Positions 33,128 through 36,292 of a stretch of DNA of 64,000 bases are shown here, piece after piece (the first letter of the stretch is position 1; the number at the start of each line of letters is the position of its first letter). Below the pieces are notes generated by a model. That model was given only the letters and a program-made list of their open reading frames with translations, had not been told where the DNA came from and did no database searches. A program made the position numbers and the translations under genes. Source of the DNA: Siphonobacter aquaeclarae (GTDB lineage: Bacteria; Bacteroidota; Bacteroidia; Cytophagales; Spirosomataceae); contig NZ_FNGS01000002.1 of NCBI RefSeq assembly GCF_900103285.1, positions 186,001 through 250,000 on the forward strand. Direction: 5' to 3'.

Positions 33128-33697
33128 CTAAAAAATGCCGATGCCGACTCCGAACTGGATCTGCTGTGAACGGCCTTTATCCTGAATATTGTCGATGTCC
33201 GACAGGCCCAGGGTATAACGTCCGTACAATTGCAGGAAACCCAGACTGAACTGCACACCAGCAACGCCCGACAGATCGCCCTTTTTGAAAGCATTCTGCC
33301 CGTTCTTCAACAGATTATCGTCCGGATTCATGAGAATGCTGTACTGAGGCCCGAGGTGAATCGTGAAATTCTCGCTCGGATTAATCCGGAGCAGCACCGG
33401 AATACTCAGGTAATTCAGCTTCTTCTTGTCTGAACCGATATTCTGAAATACCGAACCGAAATTATCGGCCACGCGTGTGTTGGATTGATTGAAGAGTACT
33501 TCTCCCTGAACGCCCAGGGATTTAACAAAATCAACAGCTACATACCCTCCGAGCTGGTATCCTAGCTGGAACTGATCGGAGTACGGCGTGCCGGCGATTT
33601 TCGCCAGGTTGGCGCCGGCTTTCGCCCCGAGATGGAACCCTTGTGACCAGGCCGGCGAGCTCGCTGCGAGGCACAATAAAAACGCGATTTTTTTCAT
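33128..33697 (-). CDS. Outer-membrane beta-barrel (PorT-like) protein
   Basis: 189 residues. Signal peptide (FLLCLAASSPAWSQ) followed by alternating beta strands, GFHLGAKAGANLAKI as the usual start, GYQLGGYVAVDFVKSLGVQGEVLF, KLNYLSIPVLLRINPSENFTIHLGPQYS, and a terminal aromatic residue (GVGIGIF). This is the PF13568 outer-membrane beta-barrel family, common in Bacteroidetes. The pore specificity is unknown. It is downstream of, and 18 bases from, the gene at 33716 and is likely co-transcribed with it. Confidence 0.9.
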   Translation of the reverse strand: MKKIAFLLCLAASSPAWSQGFHLGAKAGANLAKIAGTPYSDQFQLGYQLGGYVAVDFVKSLGVQGEVLFNQSNTRVADNFGSVFQNIGSDKKKLNYLSIPVLLRINPSENFTIHLGPQYSILMNPDDNLLKNGQNAFKKGDLSGVAGVQFSLGFLQLYGRYTLGLSDIDNIQDKGRSQQIQFGVGIGIF

Positions 33698-33715: not shown

Positions 33716-34366
33716 TTAAGGTTGAATCGACGTCAGCAGGGATCGGTTCTCCAGCTTGCTCCCGTTCCAGGCCTCCGTTTTGACAACACCGAAACCCGGC
33801 GCGAACCATTCGGTAATCTGATAGTTCATCGGTATTCCGATGCCCAGCACCTTGAACTGCACTTTCAGCAGATAGCTGATTTTGAAGCAGTTCCAGGCCT
33901 GAGCTAATGCCTGAACGGTCTCCCGGCCGGTAACCCTGCGCTCCGAAATGGCGAAGTGTACGCGGGTCCGTTTGCCTTTGACAGTCGACTCGAACGAGAA
34001 ATCTACGTCCGACGGCAACGTCTGGCCTGCACGGAGTTCCGACGGATATGCCAGAAACGCGGGAGTGTCGGTCCGGCCGGGCACCGGGAAGGCCAGTCGC
34101 AGATCCCCGTTTTCCAGGCGGGAAGAACTGACCGTTTCCTCGAGCAGCTTGCCGGCGGCGTCCCGCTTTTCGGTCCGCATGTCGGCCAGGGTGGCTGCGC
34201 CTTCCTGCCTGACGCCGGAGATAAACGAGCGACTGACGGAAATCCGTTTACCGGCGCTGTCGAAAGTGGTCATTTCAATCTGTTTTCCTTCCCGGAGGTA
34301 GTAGAATCCGTCCGGAGTCTGCCTGACCAGCCAGCTGATCAGGAGGGCGATAAGATAGGTTTTCAT
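33716..34366 (-). CDS. DUF3108/TapB-like exported protein
   Basis: 216 residues. A hydrophobic N-terminus (LIALLISWLV) is a signal peptide. The rest is a beta-rich protein with RLAFPVPGRTDTPAFLAYPSELRAGQTLPSDVDF and NYQITEWFAPGFGVVKTEAWNG, resembling DUF3108-like envelope proteins. Function unknown. The promoter region holds two direct repeats that look like LytTR response-regulator sites, and the adjacent upstream gene is a LytTR regulator; it heads the unit that includes the porin. Confidence 0.7.
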   Translation of the reverse strand: MKTYLIALLISWLVRQTPDGFYYLREGKQIEMTTFDSAGKRISVSRSFISGVRQEGAATLADMRTEKRDAAGKLLEETVSSSRLENGDLRLAFPVPGRTDTPAFLAYPSELRAGQTLPSDVDFSFESTVKGKRTRVHFAISERRVTGRETVQALAQAWNCFKISYLLKVQFKVLGIGIPMNYQITEWFAPGFGVVKTEAWNGSKLENRSLLTSIQP

Positions 34367-34423
34367 GGCTTTTGAGAAAAAGACTCGCCCAAAACAACGA
34401 AAAACCCGACCCCTGCGAAATCG

Positions 34424-34458
34424 TTTTTATAGGAAGCGTCCGGCTTTTTATACGAAAC
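34424..34458. promoter_or_regulatory. Candidate LytTR binding site, direct repeats 21 bases apart
   Basis: TTTTTATAGGAAGC at 34424-34437 and TTTTTATACGAAAC at 34445-34458 are direct repeats with start points 21 bases apart, the spacing used by LytTR regulators (two helical turns). They lie upstream of the minus-strand gene at 34366. A very similar copy lies at 36258, upstream of the kinase gene. Confidence 0.6.
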
Positions 34459-34460
34459 GA

Positions 34461-35186
34461 CTATCTGCTCAGCAAAAAGCCGCTGACGTGCCCGCCGAAA
34501 AATGAATCCCGGTAGGCTTGCCCGATGGACAGTACGGCGTCGCCAATGGTCACATAATGCGCGTCGAACGAATGAATATGCTTGACATTCACCACGCAGG
34601 ATTTGCTGATCCGGGCAAAAACAGCCGGCGGCAGCTGCTGGTAGATCGTCTTGATATTCAGGGCCGTGACGAGCTTTCGTTCCGAAGTATGCAGCACGAC
34701 GTAGTCCTTCAGCCCTTCGATATACAGAATATCCTCCAGCGCGATGCGGAAGTACTTCCGGTCGGCCTTGATGTACACAAAATCAGTCGCTACCTGCTCA
34801 ATACCAGCGGGTTGCTCTTTGTTTTTGCCGAGTAGCTCGGCATACGATAAGGCTTTCTGAACGGCTTTGTGAAAGCGGTCGCGCACGATAGGCTTCACGA
34901 GGTAATCAATTGCGTCCAGCTCATAGCTTTCCAGCGCATATTCCGAATAAGCGGTCGTGAAGATGATCAGCGTTTCGGAAGAAACGGCCCGGGCAAACTC
35001 GAGGCCATCCATACCTGGCATATTGATGTCCAGAAAAACCAGATCTGCCGCCTTTTCGCGGAGGTACCGCGCTGCCGAAAAGGCATTGTTAAAACTTTCG
35101 AGGTGAACGAGCTCCGGAATCTGCCCGGCATACTCCAGGATGCCCTCCCGGGCCAGCGGCTCGTCGTCTACAATGATATACTTCAT
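34461..35186 (-). CDS. LytTR-family response regulator
   Basis: 241 residues. Receiver domain (1-120): acidic pair at 7-8, phosphoacceptor D53 in LVFLDINMPGMDG, lysine in LVKPIVRD near 100. The C-terminal half (about 140-240) is a LytTR DNA-binding domain with DFVYIKADRKYFRIALEDILYIEGLKDYVVL and the ISKSCVVNVKHIHSFDAH strand-turn typical of AgrA/LytR. It overlaps the kinase gene by four bases, so the pair is an operon. The sites at 34424 and 36258 are candidate targets, giving autoregulation. Confidence 0.93.
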   Translation of the reverse strand: MKYIIVDDEPLAREGILEYAGQIPELVHLESFNNAFSAARYLREKAADLVFLDINMPGMDGLEFARAVSSETLIIFTTAYSEYALESYELDAIDYLVKPIVRDRFHKAVQKALSYAELLGKNKEQPAGIEQVATDFVYIKADRKYFRIALEDILYIEGLKDYVVLHTSERKLVTALNIKTIYQQLPPAVFARISKSCVVNVKHIHSFDAHYVTIGDAVLSIGQAYRDSFFGGHVSGFLLSR

Positions 35187-36202
35187 AAGGGAATGGATAG
35201 TTGGACGGTATACCGGTATTCTTCCTGACGGACAAGCAGGGAATACCTGGATGAATAGAGCAGGTCCAGACGCCGCCGGATATTCGCCAGCCCCAGTCCG
35301 CCGCGCGTACGGCCAGGCGGCGGGCCAGCCGGACGGGAATTCTCGCAGACGAACAGCAGCCTGTCTTCCCGGATATCGAACGAAAGATGCACAAACGATT
35401 CATGCAAACTGTCCGCATTGTGTTTAACGGCGTTCTCGACAAAAGGAATAAACAGAAACGGCGGCAACCGGATACCTTCCGGCCGGCCGCTGATCGTCAG
35501 GGTGAACTCGAAACGATCTCTCCGGATTTTTTCCAGATGCAGGAAATTCCGGAGAAACTGGATATCTGAAATGAGCAGAATATTGTCCTGCGCGCTGTCA
35601 TATAACTGATACCGGAGGAGCTCCGACAGCTTTTCCACTACTTCCGACGCCTTCGCCGGATCCTTGCGGGTCAGTACGTTGACGTTGTTGAGCATATTGA
35701 ACAGAAAATGCGGGTTGATCTGACTTTTGAGTCGCTCCAGTTCAGCTTCAAGGGTATGTTTCTCCAGCTCTGCCAGCCGGTGCCGGTCTTTCACCCACTG
35801 CTGAAACAGCTTGATAGCCGAGGTGCAGGAAAGGATAATAACGACGACAAAAAAGACACTCAGAAACGCCGACCAGGTAAGCTGCACATTTCCAGGCTCT
35901 CCTGTGTACGGATCCGAGAAATACACCAGGGCGAAGGAAATCACCGAGACGATCAGTACCCAGAGAAAATACGAACCGTACTTCTGCCGGAAAACCATCC
36001 GGGGCACGAGCAGGTAAATATTAAAGTAAATCAGCCCCAGCGCATAAAAAAAGGAAAGGATATCGGCCAGGGTACGCGGCCCCTTGTTTTGCGAATCGAG
36101 CAGCAGGATCACCCCGATCATGGCCGCCTGCCGAAGCAGGCTGAGCCGTGGATTGATCAGGAATTGTAATAAAATATGGCGTCCGGAGAGCTCTTTCGTC
36201 AT
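35183..36202 (-). CDS. LytS-type sensor histidine kinase
   Basis: 339 residues. Four or so N-terminal transmembrane helices (about 24-130), then the histidine kinase family PF06580 signature with H165 in LKSQINPHFLFNMLNNVNVL, and an HATPase region FVENAVKHNADS and TRGGLGLANIRRRLDLLY. There is no separate PAS or periplasmic sensor, typical of LytS relatives that detect the membrane state. It is the first gene of the operon with the LytTR regulator at 34461. Confidence 0.93.
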   Translation of the reverse strand: MTKELSGRHILLQFLINPRLSLLRQAAMIGVILLLDSQNKGPRTLADILSFFYALGLIYFNIYLLVPRMVFRQKYGSYFLWVLIVSVISFALVYFSDPYTGEPGNVQLTWSAFLSVFFVVVIILSCTSAIKLFQQWVKDRHRLAELEKHTLEAELERLKSQINPHFLFNMLNNVNVLTRKDPAKASEVVEKLSELLRYQLYDSAQDNILLISDIQFLRNFLHLEKIRRDRFEFTLTISGRPEGIRLPPFLFIPFVENAVKHNADSLHESFVHLSFDIREDRLLFVCENSRPAGPPPGRTRGGLGLANIRRRLDLLYSSRYSLLVRQEEYRYTVQLSIPL

Positions 36203-36257
36203 GGGGTGAGCGAAAAATCAACTGCAATCACACCTTTTCCGTCCCCGAATCCAATCG

Positions 36258-36271
36258 TTTTTATACGAAAC
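36258..36271. promoter_or_regulatory. Single LytTR-like half site upstream of the kinase gene
   Basis: TTTTTATACGAAAC is identical to the repeat at 34445-34458. It is 56 bases upstream of the kinase ATG. A matching second copy at the required spacing is only weak. Confidence 0.45.
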
Positions 36272-36292
36272 AGGCGCCGGAACCGATGAACC

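Follow-up and report, generated by a model that had tools for sequence, protein, structure and literature searches.

In the 64,000-nucleotide stretch of DNA analysed here (the window), two direct repeats in front of a gene for a DUF3108-like envelope protein very probably serve as operator for the LytTR response regulator whose gene adjoins them. We favour a regulator docking site because paired sites at a fixed distance from the promoter recur beside matching regulator genes in related genomes. The sequence-only reading had already taken the repeats for LytTR sites and is upheld at that level, as the pair co-occurs with an orthologous regulator and keeps a fixed distance to a -7 box. Comparison of sequences establishes the predicted site, its spacing, the constant interval between it and the -7 box and its co-occurrence with the regulator. 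With the half-site, spacing and promoter distance defined, the targets of an uncharacterised kinase-regulator pair become predictable and testable, and the DUF3108-like protein would thereby be tied to a signalling system.

Genes and repeated words at the locus

All of the genes associated with the sites are on the minus strand. The predicted target, the DUF3108-like gene (33716..34366; PF21347, E 6.5e-22), is followed after an 18-bp gap by a gene for an outer-membrane beta-barrel protein (33128..33697; PF13505, E 7.2e-14) that is likely to be in the same operon. The gene for the response regulator, which has a LytTR DNA-binding domain (34461..35186; PF00072 and PF04397), overlaps by 4 bp the end of that for a LytS-type sensor histidine kinase (35183..36202; His_kinase domain PF06580, E 4.6e-23), and upstream of the kinase is a gene assigned by Pfam to the DNA/RNA non-specific endonucleases. 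By their Pfam domains, a kinase of the PF06580 His_kinase type beside a Response_reg-LytTR protein, the two have the layout of a LytS/LytTR two-component system. A 5TM-5TMR_LYT sensor domain is a feature of LytS proper; in the window kinase PF06580 was the sole Pfam domain at E ≤ 0.001, with no 5TM-5TMR_LYT domain found. Of the six genomes of the genus, this one alone carries the regulator clade (E ≤ 1e-58), a distribution suggestive of horizontal transfer or of repeated loss.

A search of the window placed TTTTTATANGAANC, without mismatches, at 34424-34437, 34445-34458 and 36258-36271. The first two copies, 21 bp apart from start to start, are inside the 94-bp gap between the regulator and DUF3108-like genes, and the third falls within the 90 bp that precede the kinase gene. 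Just this arrangement had been described in the sequence-only reading, which reported a pair of words 21 bases apart before the DUF3108-like gene, the same word once before the kinase gene and the regulator gene between them. The words were exact at 34424, 34445 and 36258-36271, and the regulator (35186-34461) and kinase (36202-35183) genes both lie between the sites; the strand, however, had to be corrected, as the functional reading is that of the minus strand. In the whole genome (6,189,941 bases) there were three exact matches to TTTTTATANGAANC, all within the locus, and a reversed control pattern had one match in the same 6.19 Mb. A few copies per genome is about the level expected by chance, because the counts in the remaining five genomes of the genus are 2, 3, 3, 4 and 5 (tallies without positions); a cluster of three copies in 1.85 kb, with a single 94-bp gap containing two of them at a distance of 21 bp, is beyond that level. 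Outside its own genome the word alone is uninformative, occurring in 201 of 222 family genomes at tallies no higher than those of the control.

A paired site before the DUF3108-like gene

Read on the minus strand, the DUF3108 promoter contains TTCGTATAA-N12-TTCCTATAA, that is TTSSTATAA-N12-TTSSTATAA, followed by a -7-like box 29 nt further on. The distal (34448..34456, TTCGTATAA) and proximal (34427..34435, TTCCTATAA) predicted LytTR half-sites, the second 21 bp downstream of the first, each match TTSSTATAA at 9/9 positions, and the box (34390..34397, TTGTTTTG) is one change from TAnnTTTG, the Bacteroidota -7 consensus, placed at -12 to -5 (PMC9723704). The distance of 29 nt from pair to box is also that in the receptor promoters of G064, G067 and G087.

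When at most one mismatch was allowed, this strict pair occurred once in its own genome, and therefore no further target is predicted there. That single occurrence, together with the confinement of TTTTTATANGAANC to the locus, makes it most improbable that the repeats are chance AT-rich words, terminators or plasmid-type iterons. Words of this kind do exist, as 21-bp arrays of TTTTTATAA-type words stand beside Rep-like genes and are likely iterons, and a looser pair, TTNNTATAA with up to two mismatches, is not enriched in the same genome (37 matches against 64 for the reversed control). At this locus, however, the adjoining genes are not Rep-like by Pfam, and the distance to TAnnTTTG is conserved in other genomes.

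Loose TTNNTATAA pairs were also tried as a site finder and rejected, as they gave many AT-rich matches, with tandem arrays among the matches listed. The arrays have a period of about 21 bp, with TTTTTATAAGT-type words in L206, L208 and L209 and TTATTATAACA-type words in L207, L210 and L211. All six fetched arrays adjoin Rep-like genes, as judged by eye from protein starts (ParA-like genes too in L206 and L208), and we read them as plasmid iterons that a loose pattern does not tell apart from the LytTR pair.

Before the kinase gene there is a lone predicted LytTR half-site, TTCGTATAA (36261..36269, minus strand), again with a 9/9 match. The position of its partner, 21 bp upstream (36282-36290), matches at 4/9, and 26% of window positions are as good. 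A weak -7-like box, TGTGATTG (36225..36232, minus strand; 4/6 fixed positions), lies 28 nt past the half-site, and a box of 4/6 or better is found at 6% of window positions; a 4/9 partner and a 4/6 box taken together are equalled at 1.7%. The kinase promoter of G096 is similar, its halves matching at 7/9 and 8/9, but its TACTTTTG is perfect.

Conservation with the regulator in the family

Orthologous regulators, at a cut-off of E ≤ 1e-58, were found in 11 of the 222 family genomes. Conservation of the sites in related genomes was the point on which the earlier claim had been made to depend, and the site was kept beside the kinase operon in 10 of these 11, the score having been set from these same loci. 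Exact TTSSTATAA-N12-TTSSTATAA gave 14 matches in 10 of the 222 genomes (G000, G064, G067, G078, G087, G093 with five, G096, G164, G165 and G217), eight of which belong to the 11 with the regulator. The sites of those eight face the kinase operon or a neighbouring target gene, except for four of the five in G093. G164 and G165 have the site before a gene co-directional with the kinase and regulator genes that follow it (in G164 a member of the PF00144 beta-lactamase family). A one-mismatch match in G171, fetched for its motif, has a kinase-regulator pair directly downstream, and in G193 the site is TTGGTCTAA-N12-TTCGTCTAA, with the same change (TCTAA) in both halves, and faces a divergent gene, not the kinase. 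In G217, which lacks the regulator, the exact match falls inside an ORF and is not followed by TAnnTTTG at the expected spacing. Of 19 non-window places, 14 were taken with long flanks, L102-L106 being left out. The 80 relatives kept from a separate contig search with the regulator, of 42% identity or less, were likewise set aside.

Two genomes would sit more comfortably with the idea that the repeats are sites of another transcription factor, or a sigma-factor element, controlling the same genes. G078 has a complete, well-formed site with a TAGATTTG box (L175 5493, plus strand) and downstream sequence resembling the promoter of a receptor gene in G093, yet 16 kb around it gave no match to the kinase or the regulator, and its genome has no regulator match at E ≤ 1e-58. 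G127 has the regulator (50% identical) and no site scoring 19 or more in 16 kb; a filter for repeats spaced by 20-22 bp and for TAnnTTTG passed nothing in the 420 bases that precede its receptor-kinase-regulator operon. Nevertheless, such a factor seems decidedly unlikely, since both the half-sites and the interval between them have the lengths known from LytTR sites, the pair tracks the regulator in eight of the ten exact-pair genomes, and none of five paralogous kinase loci, including one from the window's own genome, had a site of 19 or more. The site in G078 is probably a relic of a lost locus. G127 has likely lost its site, because in the tree its regulator branches, with 97/96 support, among those of site-bearing genomes.

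An F-D pair in one LytTR loop was considered as a determinant of the site and rejected, as in the alignment it is present in most site-bearing regulators but also in G127. The regulator frame of G064 (L109 near 7129-6407) has an internal TAG and is open for 112 aa, the surrounding sites being intact; it is possible that this is a recent pseudogene or a sequencing error.

The site in other genomes of the order

The site score (maximum 24) was fixed on the family loci, so new genomes of the order were the only independent test. A search of 390 genomes from the order for relatives of the regulator (E ≤ 1e-56) gave seven new loci, all of which were fetched. Sites of 20 or more were found beside the kinase in four of the seven (G482, 23 and 22; G470, 22 and 20; G265, 21; G316, 21), the sites of G316 and G265 being identical in sequence. 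No site of 19 or more was found in G352, G272 and G518, whose kinases are the most diverged (29 to 34% identical). This test was scored without a prefilter on the second half-site, and every site of 20 or more would pass that prefilter. Family and order together, the site is missing in four of 18 genomes with the regulator. Shuffled loci (596 kb) gave one site at 19 and none above.

A single half-site with TAnnTTTG at 28 nt (at most one mismatch, 22 genomes) was rejected as a regulon finder, as its tallies were of the same order as those of the reversed control.

Spacing and promoter geometry

The geometry was tallied in 12 loci, four of which (L173, L174, L175 and L178) had been fetched for the motif, so that the counts are partly selected, and as they include close relatives not all of them are independent: exact half-sites no more than 80 bp apart were at 21 bp (a 12-nt spacer) in 13/13 pairs, and with one mismatch allowed 19/26 pairs were at 21 bp. 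An exact TAnnTTTG followed 12 of these 19 pairs within 80 nt, nine at 28 nt and three at 29 nt, and the remaining seven have, at the same distance, a box with 5/6 positions (six pairs) or 4/6 (one pair). Taking the -7 box as -12 to -5, the half-site centres would fall near -45 and -66.

This geometry also bears on whether the regulator represses rather than activates here. Some LytTR proteins do repress, CoxC being an example (PMC11347149), but the CoxC operator is described there as overlapping the -35 box, whereas in the present promoters 28 or 29 nt separate the end of the proximal half-site from the -7 box, which puts the half-site upstream of -33. Moreover, the consensus of the 19 sites has no fixed -33 element, as we would expect of activator-dependent promoters. 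Repression is thus unlikely, and activation remains the preferred reading.

Targets and autoregulation

Sites face the kinase operon in G064, G067, G087, G093, G096, G171, G482, G470, G265 and G316 and, with G164 and G165 included via the upstream gene, in 12 related genomes. Because they do so, the comparison supports autoregulation as the rule among related loci. The autoregulation predicted for the present locus agrees with these 12 genomes, although in the window the kinase gene is preceded by a lone half-site.

Control of envelope genes, the other prediction, was supported in kind rather than for the particular genes: predicted sites face TonB-dependent receptors elsewhere, but the link to the DUF3108-like and barrel genes is found in one genome only. 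TonB-dependent receptor domains (PF00593, PF07715) are present in site-facing genes of G087, G096 and G093, and the site-facing gene of G171 has PF14905 and PF00593, its site being weak (score 20). The Pfam receptor assignments cover these four genomes; in G064 and G067 the gene at the site is of 770 aa. The DUF3108-like and barrel genes were beside the regulator in none of 17 related loci (nine family orthologue loci, G171 and seven of the order). As targets of the regulator the two genes are plausible.

On contig 14 of G093 (about 37-62 kb; L173 and L174) five strict sites lie in 25 kb around one kinase-regulator pair. They are upstream of receptor, kinase, YceI-like and ApbE/DUF3570 genes, the last site having no obvious downstream gene; the distance from site to gene is 345 bp for the YceI-like gene and 481 bp for ApbE. 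This is the richest predicted regulon among those found.

Proposed mechanism and known LytTR systems

We infer that the regulator binds these sites, that it activates rather than represses, and that it depends on phosphorylation. The LytS-type kinase would phosphorylate the regulator, two molecules of which would occupy the two 9-bp half-sites, 21 bp apart. The half-sites would lie at a distance of some 41 to 71 bp before the transcription start, which is predicted near 34385. The bound regulators would then bring sigma-A RNA polymerase to the -7 box (TAnnTTTG), in a promoter with no obvious -33 element, and so switch on the DUF3108-barrel operon, while the weaker kinase-side half-site would turn on the kinase-regulator operon in a positive feedback. 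A wider proposal, which we put forward tentatively and think somewhat less likely to hold than to fail, is that TTSSTATAA-N12-TTSSTATAA-N28/29-TAnnTTTG may be an activation geometry specific to Bacteroidota, with a LytTR dimer replacing the missing -33 element, and that the kinase-regulator pair may be a sparsely distributed, self-amplifying cassette whose outer-membrane targets vary from genome to genome, TonB-dependent receptors in several and DUF3108 plus barrel here.

One account (PMC4847170) describes LytTR regulators as binding pairs of 9-11-nt repeats separated by 11-13 nt, with no sequence common to all. The window has two such repeats (TTCGTATAA and TTCCTATAA, 34456-34427, minus strand) with a 12-nt spacer and a predicted promoter just downstream, its box one change from the consensus; all of the operator features that can be read from sequence are present, and the predicted sites fit the LytTR plan. 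The E. coli YpdB/yhjX system of the same account is alike in its LytS/LytTR-type pair and in its two short repeats upstream of the promoter (the family has both direct and inverse ones), and at yhjX two sites, one of high and one of low affinity, act together; it differs in its half-site (GGCATTTCAT there, TTSSTATAA here) and in having an E. coli promoter in place of a Bacteroidota -7 box. LytTR Regulatory Systems (PMC6193735) have 9-bp repeats with a mostly 12-bp spacer, as here, lying a few bp before the -35 element and ahead of the regulator's own operon, giving positive feedback. Unlike the pair described here, they have a membrane inhibitor protein as partner rather than a histidine kinase, and the predicted targets here include outer-membrane receptors; direct repeats for LRS-like operons of Bacteroides are also given in that paper. 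CoxC and RcoM1 share a LytTR domain and direct repeats about two helical turns apart but have three repeats and another half-site, and CoxC represses (PMC11347149). A LytTR operator of the present half-site sequence was not found in the open-licence PubMed Central papers searched.

Triple repeats also occur among the relatives. In the receptor-side promoter of G067 (L110 8550, plus strand) a third half-site, GTTCTATAA (7/9), lies 21 bp further upstream, and a third half-site was likewise seen by eye in the receptor-side promoters of G087 and G064 (L108 and L109).
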